DNA from: Myxococcaceae bacterium JPH2
Lineage (GTDB): Bacteria; Myxococcota; Myxococcia; Myxococcales; Myxococcaceae
DNA: 64,000 nt
Assembly: GCA_016458225.1 (NCBI GenBank)
Contig: JAEMGR010000003.1
Location: 372,001-436,000, forward strand
Reading direction: 5' to 3'
Position 1 is the first letter of the stretch. Each line of letters opens with the position of its first letter. Below are positions 6,986 through 18,101 of the stretch, piece after piece. The notes beneath the pieces are model-generated. The model was not told where the DNA came from. It worked only from the letters and a program-made list of their open reading frames with translations, and made no database searches. The translations under genes and the position numbers were made by a program.

Positions 6986-7561
6986 CTACCCGCGCACCAG
7001 CACGGCGGGCAGGCCCGGCACCTTCAGGTACTCCACGCGCGTGGGGCGCGGCGCCACCTCGGGCCAACCCGGGCGCGCCAGCGCGGCCAGAATCTCCAGC
7101 ACCGGATAGGTGAAGGACTCCACCCGCGCGCCTTTCGTCATCGGCTCCAGGCCCCAGGCGAGCCCGAGCCGCAATCGCTCACACCGCGCCAGCTCCGACA
7201 CGTAGGCGGGCAATCCCTCGGGCCGCGCCTCCAGGTCTCGGCAGAAGGTGATGGCCTCCTCGCGGTTGAGCAGCTCGGGCAGCGCTTCCGTCATGAAGCG
7301 CTGGAGCCGCGGGCCCAGCTCGGGGCGCTTCGATGCATCCACCCAAGGGAGCTGCTCGGTCACCCGCGCGCCCCGGTGGTAGTCCATCATCCGCCCGGCT
7401 CGGTCCACCACCACCGCGTCCGCGCGCAGGAGCGCCTCGCGCTCCCGAGGCGTCAGCGCATAGCCCGACAGCGCCGCGCTCGCGTCCTGTCCCCACGCCC
7501 GACGGAAGCGCGGGTCCACGTGCAGCCGCGCCAGCACTTCCAATGACTGGGAATAGCTCAT
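6986..7561 (-). CDS. Candidate MNIO partner protein of the RiPP operon
   Basis: 191 aa from ATG 7561, 13 nt after the stop of the MNIO gene. The first ~45 residues (LARLHVDPRFRRAWGQDASA, then LTPREREALL) resemble the small helical LigA/Nif11-like modules seen in peptide-modification systems. The rest (YHRGARVTEQLPWVDAS, YVSELARCERLR) is compatible with the diverse partner proteins of the MbnC, TglI or BufC kind that are encoded beside DUF692 enzymes and help bind the leader. I cannot place it in a named family. Position and coupling are the main support. It is the last gene of the operon. Confidence 0.6.
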   Translation of the reverse strand: MSYSQSLEVLARLHVDPRFRRAWGQDASAALSGYALTPREREALLRADAVVVDRAGRMMDYHRGARVTEQLPWVDASKRPELGPRLQRFMTEALPELLNREEAITFCRDLEARPEGLPAYVSELARCERLRLGLAWGLEPMTKGARVESFTYPVLEILAALARPGWPEVAPRPTRVEYLKVPGLPAVLVRG

Positions 7562-7574
7562 GGCCAGGTCTCCA

Positions 7575-8405
7575 TCAGGCCGTGCTCGCGCCATGGCGTT
7601 GCAAGATGGCCCGCGCCCGCGCCAGCTCCTCCACCAACCGCGCGAAGGGCGGAAAGCCGCTGTCCATCTCGAAGTTGACGCCGCGCACCGGGCAGCGAGG
7701 CACCACGTACTCCAACAACTGCCACACCTCCTCCGGAGAGGGCGCCGAGTGGCTGTCCAAGCGCAGGCCCTCGGCCGTCGTGCCGCCAGCCAGGTGAATC
7801 TGGACCACCCGCTCCAATGGCAGACGGTCGATAAAGCGATACGCGTCGTAGCCGTGATTCACCGCGTTGCAATAGACATTGTGCAAGTCCAACAACAGGC
7901 CGCAGTCCGCGCCTTCCACCACGCGACGGATGAAGTCCGCCTCGTCCAGCGTGTTCAGGTCGGTGTGGAAGAGATAGGCGATGTTCTCCAGCACGAACGG
8001 CACGCCCAGATCGGCGCGCACCGCGCGGGCGTTGCGCACGCAGGTCTCCACCGCCTCGTCCGTCAGCGGCACGGGCGTGAGCGCGCGCAAAGGCAGATGG
8101 CCCACGCGCGTGAAGCACAGGTGGTCCCCGTGCCACACGCTCTTCGTCCGCGAGAGGATGCGCCGCAGGCCATCCCGGTAGCCCGGCGCGTCCACGCCGT
8201 CCGAGCCCACGCTCAACTCCAGACTGTGGCCCACCAGCGGATAGCGCCTGGACAAGACATCCAGGCGCCGCTCCGCGTCCTCCGTCAGCGGCAGGAAGTG
8301 CTCGGGCGTCACCTCCAGCCAGTCCACGCCCGGGTTGCCTCGTGCGAGGTGAGGGTTCAGGTCCCAGCGATAGCTGAGGCCCACGCCCAGATAGGGAAGC
8401 CCCAT
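7575..8405 (-). CDS. DUF692 multinuclear non-heme iron oxidative enzyme (MNIO)
   Basis: 276 aa from ATG 8405 with TGAGGAG 7 nt upstream. The DUF692 TIM-barrel signature is clear: GVGLSYRWDLNPHL, DWLEVTPEHF, and a string of metal-ligand candidates His60 (LVGHSLELS), His92/Asp94/His95 (WHGDHLCF), Glu140 (LENIAYLF), Asp173/His175 (LLDLHNVYCN), His204 (QIHLAGG), Asp218/His219 and Glu246 (NFEMDSG). MbnB, TglH and the bufferin enzymes of this family oxidise cysteines in ribosomal peptides. Here the likely substrate is the precursor array at 13601-14738, which offers a CxC motif. The gene lies between the methyltransferase and the partner gene, with 10-13 nt gaps. Confidence 0.9.
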   Translation of the reverse strand: MGLPYLGVGLSYRWDLNPHLARGNPGVDWLEVTPEHFLPLTEDAERRLDVLSRRYPLVGHSLELSVGSDGVDAPGYRDGLRRILSRTKSVWHGDHLCFTRVGHLPLRALTPVPLTDEAVETCVRNARAVRADLGVPFVLENIAYLFHTDLNTLDEADFIRRVVEGADCGLLLDLHNVYCNAVNHGYDAYRFIDRLPLERVVQIHLAGGTTAEGLRLDSHSAPSPEEVWQLLEYVVPRCPVRGVNFEMDSGFPPFARLVEELARARAILQRHGASTA

Positions 8406-8415
8406 GGCGCGCTCC

Positions 8416-9255
8416 TCACGCCTTGCGGCGCGCCATCACCTGGAAGTGCTGCCCCAGCACCGCGAAGCCCTCGTGCGCCAGCCGCTCCTGGAGCGCGAGG
8501 ATTTCGTCGCGCGCCGCCCACGCGTCCCACGGCGTCCCGGGCGTGCCGCGCGCGGCGGCCATGGCCTGGAGCATGTCGAAGAACATGACGGGCTTGCCGA
8601 AAATCTCATCCAGCTCCGCGCCCGCGTCAGCCACCGCCTTCTCCAGCTCGCGCACCGTGAAGGCATGCACCGGCAAGCCGTAGGGACACGAGGTGCGGCC
8701 ATCGAGCAGGGATTGAAATGCCTCGGCGGGCTTGCCCATCTTCAGCGTCCCGGCGAACGCCTCGTAGCGGTTGTCCACGCCCAGCACCACCGGCGCGCCC
8801 GGCTTCGCCACGCGCACCAGCTCCTGCACCGCGCGCGGATACGCGTCCAGGCAATACGAGACCGGGTCGCCCTCGCAGAAGACCAGGTCGAACGTGGCGT
8901 CGGCGAAGTCCAGCGCCGCCACGTTGCCCTCCACGAAGGTGGCCCGCTCGAGCAGGCCCTTCGCGGAGAACTGCGCGCGCGCGCCGTCGAGCATCCCGGG
9001 CGAGATATCCAACACCGTGACGTGGTGCCCGGCCTCCGCGAAGCGCGTGCCGAACTTGCCGCCGCCACCGCCCGCGTCCAGCACCCGCCAGGACCGCCCG
9101 TCCTTGGGCAGCAGCGCCTCCACGGGCTTCCAGGTCAGGTGCTCATACGCCAGCCAGAACAGCTTGATGGCCACGTGGTTGGGCGCCGTCTGCTCATACT
9201 TGGGCGACACCTCGTCATAGCGGCTCTTGAGGGCCGTGGGGTTCGCGGAGCTCAT
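8416..9255 (-). CDS. Class I SAM-dependent methyltransferase of the RiPP operon
   Basis: 279 aa from ATG 9255 with GAGGA 8 nt upstream; the open frame further upstream overlaps the barrel gene and is not used. SAM motif I is VLDAGGGGGKFGTRFAEAG, followed by the acidic VTVLDISPGML, and motif post-I/II lies near LVFCEGDPVSYCLDAYP. No substrate-specific domain is seen. Its place, 10 nt before the MNIO gene and 11 nt after the barrel gene, suggests it methylates the modified peptide or an intermediate. That is inference. It is unrelated in sequence to the methyltransferase at 1-84. Confidence 0.85.
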   Translation of the reverse strand: MSSANPTALKSRYDEVSPKYEQTAPNHVAIKLFWLAYEHLTWKPVEALLPKDGRSWRVLDAGGGGGKFGTRFAEAGHHVTVLDISPGMLDGARAQFSAKGLLERATFVEGNVAALDFADATFDLVFCEGDPVSYCLDAYPRAVQELVRVAKPGAPVVLGVDNRYEAFAGTLKMGKPAEAFQSLLDGRTSCPYGLPVHAFTVRELEKAVADAGAELDEIFGKPVMFFDMLQAMAAARGTPGTPWDAWAARDEILALQERLAHEGFAVLGQHFQVMARRKA

Positions 9256-9266
9256 GCAGCGTGTCC

Positions 9267-11399
9267 TCAGTAGTTGAAGGAGACCTTGGAAAGGATTCGC
9301 CGTTCCTGTGAGCCATTGAAGGGCTGATCCGTATAGACGAGGAAGATGTCGCTCCACTGGCGGTAGTGCCACCCCACCATCGCGTCGAGGAACGTGCCCT
9401 TGACGCTGTTGTAGTCCGCCAGCTCGAACACGTTGCCCTTCTGGAAGGTGACGCGCGCGTAGAGGTCCGGGCTGAAGTGGTAGCGGAGCTGCGCGTAGCC
9501 GGACCAGCTGTAGCCATCCCCCGACGTGCCGAAGAGCTTGCTGCCCTCGGGCACGTCGAAGTTGCGCGTGTAGAAGCCGCTGAACTTCGCGACGATGTGC
9601 GGCCCCAGCTTCAGGTTGAAGGCGCCGTTGAGGCCGCGAATCTGCCCGCCCAGGAAGCGCCCGCCGATGCCCGTCAGCGTGAAGCTCTGCCAGTCATGCG
9701 GGAAGAGCGTGAAGCCCGCCGTGGCCAGCCGGTTCCGGAAGCCCTCGTTGTCGTCGTAGATGCCGTCGAAGTAGAGCGCGAAGTTGTGGTGCAGGTAGGG
9801 CTGCACGTTGAGCCGCTGGCGGTAGCGCGTGCGCGCGCCCTCGTGGTTGCGCCGCCACAGCGTGTCCCACGTCATGTCCAGCCGAGGCAAGAAGCGCCAC
9901 TTGGGGAACGGGTTCAGGAACAGGTGCGTGTTCCAGCCCTGCTTGTCCACCACCGGCGTCCAGCCCAGCGGGTTCGCGTAGTTCTTCCCGATGTCCTCGA
10001 ACTGGATCCAGAACTCCGACAGCGTGTCGAAGCGGTGGAGGCCCACGTGGTAGGCGTCCGCGTCCACGTTGCCCAGCGGGCTCCAGCTGCGCAGGGCCTC
10101 GGCCTGGATGAAGAACTCCTCGTAGATGTGGATGTTCGCGTCCATGCCCAACGTGGAGAAGTCCGAGTCGCCGTAGAGGCCGCCCCGCCCGCTGCGGTTG
10201 AGCGCCACGAGCGCCAGCATCGAGCGCTTGCCCAGGTCCTGCTGGAGCCGCACCACGCCGGAGTTGACGTTCTCGTACACCTCGGAGCCATCCGGGTTGC
10301 GGCCGGAGAGGTCACGGTGCTGCACGTCGAGCAGCGCGAAGTTGAGTCCGCCCAGCTTGCCGGTGAGCTGCAGACCGCCCCAGACGCGGTCATGCGGGCG
10401 CAGCGCGATGCGGCGCGAGGTGAACACGTTGATGGGCGCGATGAAGAGGTGCTCGCTCTCCAGGAAGAACTCGCGGCGCTCCGGCAAGAGGGGCTGCTCG
10501 GTGTCCAGCAAGAGGAAGCCCTGGTCCGCCTCCGCGTCGCTGAAGTCCGGGTTGGCCGTCAGCTTCATGGACAGCCAGGGCGCCGGATCGATTCGCCCGT
10601 CCGCGCCGATGTTTGGACGGAACACGCCGCGCCCATCCTCCGTCTTGAGCGCCACGGTGGCGGCGACGTACGGGGTGACGCTGAACACGCTGCGCGGGTT
10701 GATGCCCTGCAGCCCATCCAGGTGGGGATAGCGGCTGACCTTGGCGCTGTTGACGCCGTCGGGCGTCCAGTTGCTCCACTCCTGATTGCGCGACTGCTCG
10801 CGGTCCAGGAGCATGCCGAACGTCACCACGTCCTTCTTCGGGAACTGGAAGTTGGCGAAGGGGATGCGCAGCTCGGCGATCCATCCGTCCGAGACGACGG
10901 TGGACCGGGACTCCCACTCGCCCTTCCAGTTGGTGGAGAACGCCTCGCCGTCATCCACGATGCGCCCGTCGGTGCGAACACCGAGCGTGTTCGTCCAGAA
11001 GTAGTACGCGTTCCGGTGGTCCAGGAACGTGTCGAGGATGATGGTGATGTTGTCTTCCTGGTGGAGGAAGCCCTCGTTCTGCACCGTGTAGCCGGTGATG
11101 CGGTCCGGCTGTGAGTCGAGGCAGTGGAAGAGGAAGTAGAGGTTGTCCGCGTCGTAGAGGATGCGGACCTTGGTGTCATCGCGCGCGGGCTTGCCGTAGT
11201 CGATGCGGGTCAGGTGCCAGCCAGAAATCTCTGGCGCGGTCTGCCACGCGGGCTCGTCGCCCTTGCCGTCGATGGTGATGTGCTCGGTCGTCTTGGTCGC
11301 CTGGACCTGATAGGTCGAGTCGCCGAAGGCCGCGGCGGGCACGAGGAGGGACGCCAGCAGCGCGGCGCCCCGGAGACAGGCCTTGCTCCACGTTTTCAT
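9267..11399 (-). CDS. CBM9-like / DUF5916 outer-membrane beta-barrel protein
   Basis: 710 aa. A signal peptide (MKTWSKACLRGAALLASLLV, ending near AAAFG) is followed by a CBM9-like domain (ITIDGKGDEPAWQTAPEISG, then ILYDADNLYFLFHCLDS) at about residues 30-220. The C-terminal two-thirds has alternating aromatic strands and ends in KVSFNY, typical of an outer-membrane barrel. The ATG overlaps the MFS stop (ATGA) with GGAG just upstream. Proteins of this type are usually linked to surface or carbohydrate functions. Inside a peptide operon, a role as outer-membrane exit route, receptor or immunity protein is possible, but none is shown. Confidence 0.82.
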   Translation of the reverse strand: MKTWSKACLRGAALLASLLVPAAAFGDSTYQVQATKTTEHITIDGKGDEPAWQTAPEISGWHLTRIDYGKPARDDTKVRILYDADNLYFLFHCLDSQPDRITGYTVQNEGFLHQEDNITIILDTFLDHRNAYYFWTNTLGVRTDGRIVDDGEAFSTNWKGEWESRSTVVSDGWIAELRIPFANFQFPKKDVVTFGMLLDREQSRNQEWSNWTPDGVNSAKVSRYPHLDGLQGINPRSVFSVTPYVAATVALKTEDGRGVFRPNIGADGRIDPAPWLSMKLTANPDFSDAEADQGFLLLDTEQPLLPERREFFLESEHLFIAPINVFTSRRIALRPHDRVWGGLQLTGKLGGLNFALLDVQHRDLSGRNPDGSEVYENVNSGVVRLQQDLGKRSMLALVALNRSGRGGLYGDSDFSTLGMDANIHIYEEFFIQAEALRSWSPLGNVDADAYHVGLHRFDTLSEFWIQFEDIGKNYANPLGWTPVVDKQGWNTHLFLNPFPKWRFLPRLDMTWDTLWRRNHEGARTRYRQRLNVQPYLHHNFALYFDGIYDDNEGFRNRLATAGFTLFPHDWQSFTLTGIGGRFLGGQIRGLNGAFNLKLGPHIVAKFSGFYTRNFDVPEGSKLFGTSGDGYSWSGYAQLRYHFSPDLYARVTFQKGNVFELADYNSVKGTFLDAMVGWHYRQWSDIFLVYTDQPFNGSQERRILSKVSFNY

Positions 11400-12697
11400 C
11401 CGGGCTCCGAAGTAGGAGTGAGGCTGAGCGCGGGTGTGGCGGGAGCGCCGCGAGGCTCCCTCACCCGTGCCACACAGACGAGGGCCAACAGGAAGGCCCC
11501 CGAGGACAGAAGGAACGCGGCGGAGATGCCCAGCCGCTGGGCGACGGCGCCGTAGCTGATGGGCGCGAGCACCTGCGCCAGGGCCGCGCCCGAGCCCAGG
11601 GCGCCCATGAAGCGGCCCCGCTCGGCGGCGCTGGGCACCTGCTCCACCACCAGCGCGGCCGCGGACGAGCGATGCAAGCCGTCCGGCACCGCCAACAACA
11701 CCCAGGCGAACAACAGCGTGCTCAATGCCAACCGCGGCGGCATCCAGCCCGCCACGCCCAAGAGCGCGCTCGCCACCACCATGCCGCCCAGGCCCACGGT
11801 GATGAGGCCCACGCGCCGAGGCAGCCGGTCCGACAGCCGGCCACCAAAGGGCTGCACGAAGGCGAAGACGAGCCACGAGGCGGCGACCAGCGGCCCCACC
11901 GCCTCGCGCGGCGCGCCCAGCTCCACCACGTACAGCGGCATGTACGTGGGGAAGAGGCCCAGCGCGAAGGTGAAGAAGAACTGCCACAGGAACAGGCCCG
12001 CCAGATGCGGCTGCGCCCGCACGTACGAGAAGGGCGCCACCAGCCCCTTCAGCGCCAGGCGCCAGCCGGCCTGCAGGGAGGACTCGGGCGGCGGCGTGAC
12101 GGTCTCTTTCGAGTCGAGCGCCAGCAACACCAGGCTGCTGATGAGGAACAGCCCGCCCGCGAGGAAGAAGGCCCCGCTGATGGACATCCAGCGGACCACC
12201 GCGGAGGACGCGAACAGCGACGCGACGAAGAAGAGGTTCGACGTCGAGTCCAGCATCGCGAAGATGGTGGCGCGCTGCCGCGTAGGGGCGAAGTCCGCCA
12301 CCATGGCGTTGGAGACCGGCGCGGCGCTGCGGGCCAGCAGCATCTTCAGCACCATCACCGCGGCCAGCGGGCGGGCGTCATCGATGAGCGCCACCACCGG
12401 CACGAGCAGCGACGTGGCCAGCGACAGCCCCACCACGAAGGGCTTGCGCCCATAGCGGTCCGACAGCGAGCCCAGCATGGGCTGGACGAAGATGGGCAGG
12501 AGCGAGCCCGCTGTGTACAGCGTGCCAATCTCCTGGAAGCTCAACCCGCGCGAGCGCAGGTAGAGGCCCATGACCGGGTTGAGCAGACCCGAGGCCAGCA
12601 TCCCCAACAGGCCCGAGGCGAGCAGCACGCGCAGGTTTCCCAGGCCGCGCGTCAACCCATACATCTCCCGGATGGCCCGGACGCCTTGGCGAATCAT
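11396..12697 (-). CDS. MFS transporter, candidate peptide exporter
   Basis: 433 aa from ATG 12697 with AAGGAGG 5 nt upstream. About 12 membrane helices are visible. The MFS motif A occurs in both halves (GSLSDRYGRKP and GGRLSDRLPRR), as in drug/proton antiporters. The start overlaps the stop of the S16 peptidase gene and the stop overlaps the start of the barrel gene, so the three are translationally coupled. In context it is the inner-membrane exporter of the RiPP product or its precursor. Substrate is inferred. Confidence 0.88.
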   Translation of the reverse strand: MIRQGVRAIREMYGLTRGLGNLRVLLASGLLGMLASGLLNPVMGLYLRSRGLSFQEIGTLYTAGSLLPIFVQPMLGSLSDRYGRKPFVVGLSLATSLLVPVVALIDDARPLAAVMVLKMLLARSAAPVSNAMVADFAPTRQRATIFAMLDSTSNLFFVASLFASSAVVRWMSISGAFFLAGGLFLISSLVLLALDSKETVTPPPESSLQAGWRLALKGLVAPFSYVRAQPHLAGLFLWQFFFTFALGLFPTYMPLYVVELGAPREAVGPLVAASWLVFAFVQPFGGRLSDRLPRRVGLITVGLGGMVVASALLGVAGWMPPRLALSTLLFAWVLLAVPDGLHRSSAAALVVEQVPSAAERGRFMGALGSGAALAQVLAPISYGAVAQRLGISAAFLLSSGAFLLALVCVARVREPRGAPATPALSLTPTSEPG

Positions 12698-13326
12698 GCG
12701 CCCTCCTTTCGAGGCGACAGCCCCAGCACCTGCGCGACGGCGTCGGTGAGCGTGGCCACCGGACGCACGTCCAACGCCGTGAAGGGCGCGGGGTCATGGC
12801 CACTGCCCGCGGGCACGTACACCGGCACCGGCAGGGACGCGGCGAAGCGCTGGCGCGCGTAGGCATCCGCCACGCCCAGCTTTCCTTGCAGGTATTCGCG
12901 AGGCGCCGGGGCCAGCTTCTCGCCGTGCTCATCGAGCGCCACGCCCGTGGCCAGGAAAGGCGTGGGCAGCGGCTGCCCGCAGAGGAGCGCCACCCAGGCC
13001 ACGAACAGCGGCAGGGAGGCACTGCGACCGTCCAGCGTCACGCCCTTGCCACGCGGCGACACATGCAGGTCCGTCTCGTCCCACGCCAGCGCGTAGTGCC
13101 GCCGGCCGAGCGCTCCAAGGTGACGCACGTGCTGCTGCCACGACGACGTGAAGGCATTGTCGCGGGACAGGTCGACCCAGAGTCGGCCCTGGCCCTCTCT
13201 CACCGCCACGTCCACCGGAACGGTCCGGAAGAGCGTGCGGCCACCCAGGTCCGCCTGGGTGAAGAGCAACAGCGAAGTGGATGCGGAAGGCACGGCGCGG
13301 ACCAGGTCGGACGCAAGAGGAAACAC
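12694..13326 (-). CDS. Stand-alone Lon-type (S16) Ser/Lys peptidase domain
   Basis: 210 aa if it starts at GTG 13326; GTG 13293 is an alternative, and neither has a good ribosome site. The open frame continues up to 13455, but across a strong hairpin with poor coding character. The whole S16 fold can be followed: ADLGGRTLF, the acidic strand DLHVSPRGKGVTLDGRSAS with the nucleophile Ser102 in DGRSAS (Lon: DGPSAG), LLCGQPLP, FLATGVALDEHGEKL, and Lys149 in LQGKL, which aligns with the catalytic Lys of LKEKL in Lon. The end (VYVPAGS, then VRPVATLTDAVAQVLGL) also matches. There is no AAA+ domain. It may trim the leaders of the precursors encoded directly upstream. Confidence 0.7.
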   Translation of the reverse strand: MFPLASDLVRAVPSASTSLLLFTQADLGGRTLFRTVPVDVAVREGQGRLWVDLSRDNAFTSSWQQHVRHLGALGRRHYALAWDETDLHVSPRGKGVTLDGRSASLPLFVAWVALLCGQPLPTPFLATGVALDEHGEKLAPAPREYLQGKLGVADAYARQRFAASLPVPVYVPAGSGHDPAPFTALDVRPVATLTDAVAQVLGLSPRKEGA

Positions 13327-13327
13327 A

Positions 13328-13360
13328 GCCGGGCGGAAGGGACCTGCCCTTCCGCCCGGC
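13328..13360 (-). terminator. Perfect 14-bp hairpin between precursor array and enzyme genes
   Basis: GCCGGGCGGAAGGG (13328-13341) and CCCTTCCGCCCGGC (13347-13360) form a perfect 14-bp stem with a 5-nt loop. On the minus strand the stem is followed by GTGTTTCCTCTT, a weak T-rich tail. It lies about 240 nt after the last precursor and right before the S16 gene, so partial termination would yield more precursor mRNA than enzyme mRNA. Confidence 0.7.
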
Positions 13361-13600
13361 CATGGACGACTAGAGCCCCAGCCCGGCCGTCCCGGACGGG
13401 ACAGCCATGCCGCGACAACAGCGAAGCGGCACCGTGACAACGGCAACGCGGGCACTCACGGATGGACGGTTCATGGAATGTCTCCCGAAAGGTTTCGCGT
13501 GACTGGGGTGCCCCGGCTCACCGGTCCGCAAATGCAGACACTCGGGTGCGTTCGAAGGGGAGGAACCCCTCGAGGCTCCGCGTGAGCGAGGCGGGAGGGA
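13361..13600. other. Non-coding gap between last precursor and hairpin
   Basis: 240 bases. Open frames cross it on both strands, but none has a ribosome site or a recognisable product. No further copy of the precursor leader is present. Confidence 0.4.
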
Positions 13601-13699
13601 CTACTCGGCGCGCACCGTGGTGTCGCTCGCCATACCGGTGGAGCAGGTGCACTTGTCGGCAGCCGCGGAGACGCGGACGATCTCAGACTGGATGTACAT
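13601..13699 (-). CDS. RiPP precursor candidate, copy 9 (variant C)
   Basis: 32 aa, too short for most gene finders. It shares the leader-like start MYIQSEIVRVSAAAD and KCTCS with the others, then differs: TGMASDTTVRAE. Its nucleotide sequence differs from the repeats at many third positions (for example GCAGCCGCGGAG), so it is older than the identical copies. AAGGA lies upstream of the ATG. It is last in transcription order. This tail ends in AE rather than VAQ. Confidence 0.8.
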   Translation of the reverse strand: MYIQSEIVRVSAAADKCTCSTGMASDTTVRAE

Positions 13700-13725
13700 G
13701 GTGTTTTCCTTGAGAGCGGCGCGGA

Positions 13726-13827
13726 CTACTGCGCCACCTGGTCGGTGGAGAGGATGACCATGCCGCTGGAGCAGGTGCACTTGTCGGCGGCGGCGGAGAC
13801 GCGAACGATCTCGGACTGGATGTACAT
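13726..13827 (-). CDS. RiPP precursor candidate, copy 8 (variant B)
   Basis: 33 aa: leader-like MYIQSEIVRVSAAAD, then KCTCSSGMVILSTDQVAQ. AAGGA sits 6-7 nt before the ATG and 26 nt separate its stop from copy 9. An upstream in-frame start would give 60 aa but lies inside the previous copy in the wrong frame and has no ribosome site. Nucleotide-identical to copies 3-7. Confidence 0.85.
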   Translation of the reverse strand: MYIQSEIVRVSAAADKCTCSSGMVILSTDQVAQ

Positions 13828-13853
13828 GGTGTTTTCCTTGAGAGCGGCGCGGA

Positions 13854-13955
13854 CTACTGCGCCACCTGGTCGGTGGAGAGGATGACCATGCCGCTGGAGC
13901 AGGTGCACTTGTCGGCGGCGGCGGAGACGCGAACGATCTCGGACTGGATGTACAT
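13854..13955 (-). CDS. RiPP precursor candidate, copy 7 (variant B)
   Basis: 33 aa, identical in DNA and protein to copy 8, including its 26-nt spacer and ribosome site. Two cysteines (CTC) are the only cysteines. No signal peptide is present, so export of the product needs a dedicated transporter. Confidence 0.85.
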   Translation of the reverse strand: MYIQSEIVRVSAAADKCTCSSGMVILSTDQVAQ

Positions 13956-13981
13956 GGTGTTTTCCTTGAGAGCGGCGCGGA

Positions 13982-14083
13982 CTACTGCGCCACCTGGTCG
14001 GTGGAGAGGATGACCATGCCGCTGGAGCAGGTGCACTTGTCGGCGGCGGCGGAGACGCGAACGATCTCGGACTGGATGTACAT
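13982..14083 (-). CDS. RiPP precursor candidate, copy 6 (variant B)
   Basis: 33 aa, identical to copies 3-8. The conserved N-terminal half (SEIVRVSAAAD) is the probable recognition part and the CTCSSG onward the probable core. The cleavage site is not known. Confidence 0.85.
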   Translation of the reverse strand: MYIQSEIVRVSAAADKCTCSSGMVILSTDQVAQ

Positions 14084-14109
14084 GGTGTTTTCCTTGAGAG
14101 CGGCGCGGA

Positions 14110-14211
14110 CTACTGCGCCACCTGGTCGGTGGAGAGGATGACCATGCCGCTGGAGCAGGTGCACTTGTCGGCGGCGGCGGAGACGCGAACGATCTCGGAC
14201 TGGATGTACAT
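14110..14211 (-). CDS. RiPP precursor candidate, copy 5 (variant B)
   Basis: 33 aa, identical to copies 3-8. The 128-bp period comprises 102 nt of gene and 26 nt of spacer, so each copy carries its own ribosome site. Confidence 0.85.
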   Translation of the reverse strand: MYIQSEIVRVSAAADKCTCSSGMVILSTDQVAQ

Positions 14212-14237
14212 GGTGTTTTCCTTGAGAGCGGCGCGGA

Positions 14238-14339
14238 CTACTGCGCCACCTGGTCGGTGGAGAGGATGACCATGCCGCTGGAGCAGGTGCACTTGTCGGC
14301 GGCGGCGGAGACGCGAACGATCTCGGACTGGATGTACAT
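14238..14339 (-). CDS. RiPP precursor candidate, copy 4 (variant B)
   Basis: 33 aa, identical to copies 3-8. No synonymous difference is seen, which points to recent duplication or ongoing gene conversion. Confidence 0.85.
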   Translation of the reverse strand: MYIQSEIVRVSAAADKCTCSSGMVILSTDQVAQ

Positions 14340-14365
14340 GGTGTTTTCCTTGAGAGCGGCGCGGA

Positions 14366-14467
14366 CTACTGCGCCACCTGGTCGGTGGAGAGGATGACCA
14401 TGCCGCTGGAGCAGGTGCACTTGTCGGCGGCGGCGGAGACGCGAACGATCTCGGACTGGATGTACAT
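14366..14467 (-). CDS. RiPP precursor candidate, copy 3 (variant B)
   Basis: 33 aa, the first in transcription order of the six identical copies. Its start region (AAGGAAAACACC before ATG) is the one shared by copies 3-9. Confidence 0.85.
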   Translation of the reverse strand: MYIQSEIVRVSAAADKCTCSSGMVILSTDQVAQ

Positions 14468-14493
14468 GGTGTTTTCCTTGAGAGCGGCGCGGA

Positions 14494-14595
14494 CTACTGC
14501 GCCACCTGGTCGGTGGAGAGGATGACCATGCCGCTGGAGCAGGTGCACTTGTCGGCGGCGGCGGAAACGCGGGCGATCTCGGACTTGACGTACAT
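14494..14595 (-). CDS. RiPP precursor candidate, copy 2 (variant B core, variant leader)
   Basis: 33 aa. The N-terminus is MYVKSEIARV as in copy 1, while the rest (SAAADKCTCSSGMVILSTDQVAQ, in two parts SAAADKCTCSSG and MVILSTDQVAQ) equals copies 3-8. It is thus a chimera of the copy 1 leader and the variant B core. Its ribosome site is AGGAGA, stronger than that of copies 3-9. Confidence 0.85.
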   Translation of the reverse strand: MYVKSEIARVSAAADKCTCSSGMVILSTDQVAQ

Positions 14596-14627
14596 GGTGA
14601 GTCTCCTGTGTGGAGTTGCGGGTGGGA

Positions 14628-14738
14628 CTACTGAGCCACGTTGATGACGTCGATCTTCACGGTCGCGTTCATGCCGTTGCTGCAGGTGCACTTGTCAGCG
14701 GCGGCGGACACGCGGGCGATCTCGGACTTGACGTACAT
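14628..14738 (-). CDS. RiPP precursor candidate, copy 1 (variant A)
   Basis: 36 aa, the longest copy: MYVKSEIARVSAAAD, then KCTCSNGMNATVKIDVINVAQ in which only the KCTCS, GM and VAQ positions match variant B. AGGAGA lies 6 nt before the ATG. It is the first precursor after the PqqD-like gene and follows a 191-nt leader region with hairpins. Confidence 0.85.
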   Translation of the reverse strand: MYVKSEIARVSAAADKCTCSNGMNATVKIDVINVAQ

Positions 14739-14807
14739 GTTGATTCTCCTGGTTGAGGGTGAATGCCTGTCACGTCGAGACCCCATGTCTCAGGCAACAG
14801 GCGGCCA

Positions 14808-14839
14808 TGTGTGTCTTCACACGCAATCAAAGACACACA
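14808..14839. promoter_or_regulatory. 10-bp perfect inverted repeat ahead of the precursor array
   Basis: TGTGTGTCTT (14808-14817) and AAGACACACA (14830-14839) form a perfect stem with a 12-nt loop. A second small hairpin, GAGAC (14777-14781) with GTCTC (14787-14791), lies closer to copy 1. They may terminate or pause transcripts from the PqqD-like gene, stabilise the precursor mRNA, or serve as an operator. Confidence 0.5.
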
Positions 14840-14929
14840 GTTGTCGGGGCCCCTCTGGGCACGGCGCTGCCGTCCCCCGCGCACGACGCGGGGCCCCACG
14901 ATGGAAAAGTCTCCGCCCCGGTCAGGTCC

Positions 14930-15208
14930 TCAGGGGGCGGGATGGGGCTCGCACAGCCCCAGCTCCTGGAACTGCTCGACGGTCCTCCGCACGTCCGCGC
15001 GGATGTCCGCCTCCTGGCCCGCGGCGTTCAGGCTGCTCGCAAGCGTTTGCACCGCGGCATCCAGTGAGACGCCGCTCTGGCACAGCCCGAAGATGCGGGC
15101 CGCCGTCTCGTTGACGCGGAAGACCTCGCCACCTTCGGTATCCATCAAGAAATAGGCATCATCTTGTTGCTGCACGATGACGCCGGGCGCCGCGGGAGGC
15201 AGGTTCAA
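14930..15208 (-). CDS. PqqD-like RiPP recognition protein
   Basis: 92 aa from TTG 15208. The start is fixed by an in-frame TGA just upstream and a GAGGGGG ribosome site at the right distance. The sequence follows the PqqD fold: APGVIVQQQDDAYFLMDTEG, VFRVNETAARIFGLC, a helix SLDAAVQTLASSL and a C-terminal helix DIRADVRRTVEQFQELGL. PqqD-type (RRE) proteins bind leader peptides and present them to modifying enzymes. It is first in the operon, 191 nt before the precursor genes, and is the strongest independent sign that the repeats encode modified peptides. Confidence 0.88.
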   Translation of the reverse strand: MNLPPAAPGVIVQQQDDAYFLMDTEGGEVFRVNETAARIFGLCQSGVSLDAAVQTLASSLNAAGQEADIRADVRRTVEQFQELGLCEPHPAP

Positions 15209-15292
15209 ACGAAATCCCCCTCATGTGGGCGGCTGTCTCGATGTGCCCAATTACCGCTGAGACCCGATAAACCGCGCCTTGATGTGATTTCA

Positions 15293-15322
15293 TTTTTAAA
15301 ACCATTCCATCACAAGTGTCAA
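15293..15322 (-). promoter_or_regulatory. Candidate sigma-A promoter of the RiPP operon
   Basis: On the minus strand a perfect TTGACA (15322-15317) is followed after 17-18 nt by TTAAAA or TAAAAA (15299-15293). The 5' leader to the TTG start at 15208 would be about 75-80 nt. The surrounding DNA is markedly AT-rich for this genome. AAGTGT (15314-15319) and ACACTT (15331-15336) form an inverted repeat over the -35 region that could bind a regulator. Confidence 0.6.
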
Positions 15323-15476
15323 CACGCTGAACACTTTTCAAAATCGCTGTACGCAATGAGTTTCAAGACAGAGCCATGCGACAAAACGTGTCTGGTCGTG
15401 GCGCGGTGCGCGAGCGGATGTGCGGTGGTGGGCGGATCCAGGCGGACTTCGTTCGCACCGCGCGGCAGGTGATGCG

Positions 15477-18101
<2,625 letters not shown>

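Follow-up and report, generated by a model that had tools for sequence, protein, structure and literature searches.

What is made by an operon that joins nine tiny genes, all encoding the motif KCTCS, to an enzyme of the MNIO (DUF692) superfamily? We addressed this question in a 64,000-nucleotide stretch of the genome of Myxococcaceae bacterium JPH2 (contig JAEMGR010000003.1, positions 372,001 to 436,000), hereafter the window, in which the operon lies on the minus strand. A reading made from the letters without database searches (the sequence-only reading) had proposed a new gene cluster for ribosomally synthesized and post-translationally modified peptides (RiPPs). Our best reading is that of a new MNIO-RiPP subclass, and precursor genes and modifying enzyme were found to be linked and conserved as a unit in related genomes. 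With a probability of roughly 0.55, the MNIO enzyme and its partner oxidize a Lys-Cys-x-Cys site in the precursors, a methyltransferase caps the product, a Lon-type protein guided by a PqqD-like protein cuts after Glu or Gln, and the peptides are exported.

The precursor array and its operon

The operon runs from 15208 to 6986 and holds every gene of the set claimed in the sequence-only reading, in the following order.

14930..15208, minus strand: PqqD-like protein of the RiPP recognition element (RRE) type, 92 aa, TTG start (PF05402, 46.9 bits, cut-off 23.4)
14628..14738, minus strand: precursor copy 1, 36 aa
14494..14595, minus strand: precursor copy 2, 33 aa
14366..14467, minus strand: precursor copy 3, 33 aa; protein identical in copies 3-8
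14238..14339, minus strand: precursor copy 4, 33 aa
14110..14211, minus strand: precursor copy 5, 33 aa
13982..14083, minus strand: precursor copy 6, 33 aa
13854..13955, minus strand: precursor copy 7, 33 aa
13726..13827, minus strand: precursor copy 8, 33 aa
13601..13699, minus strand: precursor copy 9, 32 aa, tail differs
13370..13474, minus strand: tenth precursor-like open reading frame (ORF), degenerate, 34 aa, CC replacing CxC
13324..13364, minus strand: terminator-like hairpin, 18 pairs, separating the array from the downstream genes
12694..13293, minus strand: stand-alone Lon-type (S16) protease-fold protein, likely GTG start (predicted fold)
11396..12697, minus strand: major facilitator superfamily (MFS) transporter, 433 aa, predicted exporter (PF07690, 175.1 bits, cut-off 33.4)
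9267..11399, minus strand: CBM9-domain protein, 710 aa, possibly an outer-membrane protein (PF06452, 36.3 bits, cut-off 23.4)
8416..9255, minus strand: S-adenosylmethionine (SAM)-dependent methyltransferase, 279 aa (PF13649, 72.8 bits, cut-off 27)
7575..8405, minus strand: MNIO (DUF692) enzyme, 276 aa (PF05114, 261.8 bits)
6986..7561, minus strand: predicted MNIO partner, 191 aa, TglI/NGO1945-like (AlphaFold model and fold searches)

The PqqD-like, methyltransferase and MFS assignments of the sequence-only reading all passed the Pfam cut-offs given above. Its 'outer-membrane barrel' stood in part: the CBM9 domain is clear, but the DUF5916 match falls short of its cut-off and an outer-membrane location is possible. 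No papers on DUF5916 were found in the open-licence literature of PubMed Central (PMC).

Of the nine precursor ORFs, all on the minus strand, seven encode 33 residues, one 36 and one 32, and six of the nine give the same protein. Within the array, a tandem repeat with a period of 128 bp extends over 7.6 units with 98% matching. The pattern KCTC[S/T] was matched nine times in the window, a count reached in none of 100 shuffles (shuffle mean 0.01), which rules out a chance origin of the KCTCS repeats. The precursor-like ORF that follows the array is retained in the sister genome (locus L111). Decayed or divergent ORFs with shifted or extra Cys residues (RCC, RCMCC) were seen at the array end in the window (13370-13474, minus strand), L111:6299, L116:7115 and L117:5410, and the end copies of L116 and L117 are of a different make from the tenth ORF of the window.

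The hairpin at 13324-13364 (-37.9 kcal/mol, z -6.4) is followed by T-rich sequence. Long hairpins of this kind, judged by eye from the 60-base segment of highest stability, follow the array in 16 of 21 loci, and a putative role in raising the precursor transcript above the enzyme transcript is plausible. Terminator-like sites in the region showed no excess (1 against 1.3 in shuffles), and no sigma-70-like promoter was found.

Across 21 loci, 82 ORFs encode 72 distinct precursor peptides. The search pattern itself imposed MY, Arg at position 9, Ile, Val or Leu at 7, and the two Cys, at 17 and 19. Conservation at residues 6 (Glu or Gln), 15 (Asp), 16 (Lys) and 23 (Met) and at the C-terminus, and the lack of further Cys, are thus independent of the pattern; the four array-end ORFs named above and the fused precursor of locus L127 stand outside the 72. 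Residue 6 was Glu or Gln, residue 15 Asp, residue 23 Met and the C-terminal residue Glu or Gln in 72 of 72 peptides, Lys16 was present in 71 of 72, and none of the 72 contained a Cys beyond the CxC pair. Each peptide is composed of a strongly conserved head, the first 23 residues, which ends in DKC[TS]C...M, and a tail of the remaining 7-13 residues, which is rich in V, T, A, S, I and L and varies across copies and strains. With a ratio of nonsynonymous to synonymous differences (pN/pS) of 0.15 (155 non-independent pairs), the heads look to be under purifying selection. The corresponding tail value of 1.43 (23 same-length pairs) was not accepted as positive selection because the tails may not be alignable.

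In genome G081, seven precursor units are fused into one polyprotein, in which the MY start occurs once, I-x-R-[VL]-x-x-T-T-D-K-C-T-C is repeated in every unit, and the final residue is Gln. Five of its six junctions read Glu-Ile, joining the terminal Glu of one unit to residue 7 of the following one; the sixth junction is Ala-Ile. From the precursors and the fused units we infer cleavage after Glu or Gln, and the MY and I-x-R-V segments may be bound by different proteins.

Conservation of the cluster in myxobacteria

Orthologues of the MNIO enzyme (74-100% identity) were found in 23 of 145 genomes of the order, with the next match at 45%, which rules out the cluster as a curiosity of the window. 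They were present in 2 of 2 genomes of the window's genus, 15 of 16 of genus g5, 1 of 7 of g7 and 5 of 27 of g19. In a sample of 195 genomes from the phylum, the same 23 scored at least 519 bits (519.7) and the next 298 (297.7). Among 77 loci in a collection of named genomes, 14 reached at least 74% identity (Citreicoccus, Corallococcus, Pyxidicoccus, Myxococcus and two metagenome-assembled genomes) and the other 63 at most 43%. Reach across the phylum is thin: at E 1e-80, two other classes gave no match to the enzyme (0 of 16 and 0 of 9 genomes); Chondromyces apiculatus encodes an MNIO 61% identical to that of the window.

We compared the gene neighbourhoods of the window and the 22 other orthologue genomes. 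Gene order was identical in all loci as far as the contigs extend, in line with the expectation that it would recur in other myxobacteria, and the PqqD-like gene was the first of the operon wherever the locus reaches far enough. In genera g1 and g5, every contig long enough to show it has a histidine kinase on one flank of the operon and the same DNA stretch on the other; neither occurs next to the operon at any of the six loci from g7 and g19. The flanks differ in these two genera, and the operon therefore travels as a unit bounded by the PqqD-like and partner genes; the conserved set with changing flanks also rules out a chance co-location of its genes. The kinase, of the PAS/GAF type and divergently transcribed (window 15420-18101, plus strand), is a possible regulator of the operon and was a neighbour in g1 and g5 only.

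Of the 23 orthologue genomes, 22 yielded precursor sequences: canonical ones at the locus in 18, the fused version in G081, and in three draft genomes an array on a separate contig together with the PqqD-like and Lon-type genes. The G059 contig breaks off within the MFS gene, ahead of the array, and no Lon-type gene was found elsewhere in the genome; we attribute the missing array to incomplete assembly. A DNA pattern for DKCxCx, applied to 96 genomes of the family, matched in 20 of the 23 orthologue genomes and missed G059, G064 and G066, the arrays of the latter two having been read directly. No array was found with this pattern in the 73 family genomes without the orthologue, nine of which had a single match or two on different contigs (patterns only), and G069, the sole g5 genome without the orthologue, had no match. 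In the sister genome (G055), two DKCNCL-type matches lie about 4 kb apart outside the cluster (C53:75466 and 79318).

Place of the enzyme among MNIO families

The enzyme at 7575-8405 (minus strand) matched PF05114 with an E-value of 7.5e-78 and 261.8 bits against a cut-off of 25, as expected of the DUF692/MNIO enzyme named in the sequence-only reading. Residues H60, H95, E140, D173, H204, D217, H219 and E246, which we take to include the metal ligands, were invariant (n=25) and line up with TglH and 3bww. Five NCBIfam cut-offs were missed: those of the bufferin maturase BufB (NF050167, 196.2 bits, cut-off 310), the HvfB type (NF003818, 195.3 bits, cut-off 360), the aminopyruvatide enzyme ApyH (123.8 bits, cut-off 400), the ChrH type (70.2 bits, cut-off 600) and the methanobactin enzyme MbnB (25 bits, cut-off 325). 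As a positive control, a paralogue in the window's genome passed the BufB cut-off (324.5 bits against 310). Membership in a known MNIO family was rejected on these scores, and the enzyme did not cluster tightly with a characterized family.

Among the best 120 of 1632 proteins at E 1e-20, 43 relatives showed at least 57% identity and the next 47%; MNIOs from metagenomes stand at 57-71%. In a tree of 69 rows, which comprised the window's enzyme, 33 close relatives out of the 43, every fourth protein among the next 77 and 15 further sequences, the 34 clade rows fell on one side of a branch with a support of 79/98, present in 82% of bootstrap trees. Because this support is only 79/98 and 82%, the clade rests more on the gaps in identity (57% to 47%) and score (519.7 to 297.7 bits).

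Other MNIOs were seen in passing. The bufferin-type MNIO of the window's genome (L133, G000:C7, ~9493-10692) lies behind an 87-aa ORF that contains Cys and begins like a signal peptide, and a third, very divergent MNIO-type domain lies in a 552-aa open frame (L134, G000:C9, ~9628-10344). The MNIOs of L159 (minus strand, ORF at 8961) and L160 (minus strand, ORF at 9269), ~43-45% identical to that of the window, directly follow Cys-rich ORFs of 57-66 aa that share TEEFKLEMLDCGPAY plus a Cys-rich end. These ORFs form a second, distinct family of putative MNIO precursors in myxobacteria.

The partner and the Lon-type protein

The partner gene directly follows the MNIO gene and likely starts at ATG 7561, inside a longer ORF beginning at 7594. 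A search of its profile against PDB sequences found no relative. The best fold match of its AlphaFold model was a TglI chain (Foldseek matches beyond rank 3, except MbnC, were disregarded as noise), and the protein is TglI/NGO1945-like by predicted structure. A DUF2063-like fold without the DUF2063 signature, encoded directly after the MNIO, agrees with a PME-type 2 (TglI-like) partner, and the likely partner of the sequence-only reading gains a predicted fold.

The Lon-type protein had no Pfam match. Its gene likely starts at GTG 13293, and despite the missing match a structure prediction spanning 12694-13290 gave a Lon (S16) protease fold, consistent with the peptidase domain previously suggested. 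All 25 homologues compared, the most distant at 47% identity, keep Ser90 and Lys137. A weak alignment by sequence (E 0.52) places the two residues against DGDSA and NEK of 1xhk, a Lon homologue, motifs that we take to hold the catalytic Ser and Lys; by sequence, the protein carries the Ser-Lys dyad of Lon (S16) proteases.

Comparison with known systems

The gene set and precursors differ from those of methanobactin, 3-thiaglutamate and bufferin clusters, as the sequence-only reading had held. Like the bufferin, HvfA-oxazolin and captophorin systems (BufB, HvfB, FonB), the cluster combines an MNIO with a partner, and their models gave the highest NCBIfam scores (196 and 195 bits); Lys-Cys motifs are also present there, in the EGKCG family. 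Unlike them, it scores under the cut-offs of 310 and 360, has a TglI-like partner without a DUF2063 match, encodes precursors of 30-36 aa with one CxC at a distance from the MNIO gene, and adds PqqD-like, methyltransferase, Lon-fold and CBM9 genes. The 3-thiaglutamate system (TglHI) resembles it in the fold of the partner and in an alignment of the MNIO with TglH at 86.8 bits, but no lanthipeptide-type enzyme (peptide aminoacyl-tRNA ligase, PEARL) was among the operon's Pfam matches, and the Cys residues here are internal to the peptide. To our knowledge, pearlin clusters need such an enzyme. From methanobactin (MbnABC) it differs in the MbnB score (25 bits against 325), precursors and gene set.

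In lasso-peptide clusters, a PqqD-like B1 protein is accompanied by a separate B2 peptidase. The operon likewise has a stand-alone PqqD-like protein, whose best NCBIfam PqqD model was lasso_PqqD (38 bits, missing the cut-off of 70), and a separate candidate peptidase, but the latter has a Lon fold and no lasso cyclase match was found in the operon. The biphenomycin-like pbs cluster, as given in the available text of PMC12257519, shares several precursors, an MNIO, an RRE partner, an MFS transporter and a protease; it differs in its FHAFRF motif, B12 radical SAM enzyme and arginase, for which no matches were found here.

Proposed pathway and alternatives

The partner would present the precursor head to the MNIO, which would convert Cys17 and/or Cys19 to 5-thiooxazole-type rings (-4 Da each). 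This chemistry is proposed because the nearest characterized enzymes (HvfB/BufB/FonB type) modify Lys-Cys sites; for FonA, a 4 Da loss was localized to each Lys-Cys motif and assigned to 5-thiooxazole in the available part of PMC12668002. The methyltransferase would place a methyl group on the freed thiol, the PqqD-like protein would hand the precursors over to the Lon-type protein for cleavage after Glu/Gln-6, and the MFS and CBM9 proteins would export the product. We infer that the peptides are MNIO substrates; a Cys heterocycle at Lys-Cys, by analogy, as well as methylation and release after Glu or Gln, are likely. For the protein of copies 3-8, the calculated monoisotopic mass with Met is 3503.68 Da unmodified, 3499.65 Da after loss of 4 H and 3495.61 Da after loss of 8 H; the corresponding values for the part from Val10 onward are 2384.10, 2380.07 and 2376.04 Da, each methyl group would add 14.02 Da, and the predicted product starting at Ile7 would have 2752.36 Da unmodified. 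A universal need for the PqqD-like protein is weighed against by locus L130 (G109), in which its frame looks broken, with 55 of 92 residues aligning and a different frame end. More tentatively, the cluster may represent a new RiPP class of predatory myxobacteria, with MNIO-made CxC rings, a cap, a dedicated Lon-type Ser/Lys peptidase and a strain-specific exported library, made in some cases as a seven-unit polyprotein.

It is unlikely that the MNIO of the same cluster hydroxylates Asp15 or Lys16, or makes an oxazolone or thioamide, and leaves one or both Cys free, in a disulfide or in a metal site. Asp15 is invariant in the 72 precursors, the cut-offs of the Cys-modifying families are missed, the available text of PMC13060819 reports an MNIO that acts as an Asp hydroxylase, and according to that of PMC12452194 small MNIO groups may act on residues other than Cys. 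The latter, however, names conserved Cys as the likeliest targets in large families, the top model scores belong to the Cys-modifying BufB and HvfB, and the Cys pair is present in every canonical precursor, a weak point since the search pattern demanded it. The same top scores, together with the Cu binding of bufferin-type thiooxazole peptides (PMC12452194, PMC12668002, as available), would suit a bufferin-like metallophore that buffers copper or another metal and in which the tails are irrelevant. We find this doubtful: the precursors have two Cys only and no signal peptide apparent by eye, the operon proteins scanned gave no DUF2063 or DoxX match, a separate MNIO passing the BufB cut-off is already in the genome, and the patchy distribution (5 of 27 genomes in g19) and diverse tails fit secondary metabolism better.

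A structural or assembly role for the Lon-fold protein, with general proteases maturing the peptides, is also improbable in view of the invariant Ser90 and Lys137 and their alignment with 1xhk. We give very little credence to a coincidental neighbourhood in which the array is not a substrate of the MNIO. The array lies about 5 kb from the MNIO gene, which the methyltransferase gene directly precedes, but 22 of 23 genomes carry both array and orthologue, against changing flanks. This co-occurrence, with no array found in the 73 other family genomes searched, also bears out the association between array and MNIO gene on which the sequence-only reading had relied. A RiPP cluster with modification at Lys-Cys-x-Cys remains our preferred reading.

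Novelty and significance

No description of the cluster was found in the part of the open-licence PMC literature covered, in keeping with the earlier suggestion that product and chemistry may be undescribed. The main text of the MNIO landscape paper has no words starting with myxococc, PqqD or methyltransferase, and its adjamnio families differ from the present precursors in length, signal peptide or Cys motif, by the main-text descriptions where given. Nothing on the cluster occurs in the available portion of PMC12710340, and the ChrH-like enzymes of PMC12636315 (as available), some of them in Myxococcota, have CPxCG motifs and belong to a different subfamily. The survey in PMC12452194, by its available text, collected ORFs preceding MNIO genes and could have missed these precursors because of their distance of about 5 kb to the MNIO gene. 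MNIO-RiPP clusters are already known; the open-licence PMC literature searched showed no such gene set, precursor type or peptidase. The words Lon and S16 are absent from the available main text of a review of RiPP leader proteases (PMC10885120), and a Lon-type leader or unit peptidase would, if true, add to RiPPs a type of protease that is new as far as the literature searched goes.

According to the available text of PMC12257519, MNIO chemistry is not yet predictable from sequence outside close homologues. Here, precursor, MNIO, predicted partner, candidate release protease, methyltransferase and transporter are all in one locus, which named strains also carry, and the precursors, at 33 residues, are of a length suited to cell-free tests. 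We predict that this myxobacterial MNIO cluster makes an undescribed family of modified, exported peptides. Its hosts are soil-dwelling myxobacteria in which one CxC site is kept while the tails change; if the reading is true, the array would yield a small natural library whose many members have the modified site in common and differ in their tails, and array expansion together with tail change would lead to a strain-specific library of exported peptides.

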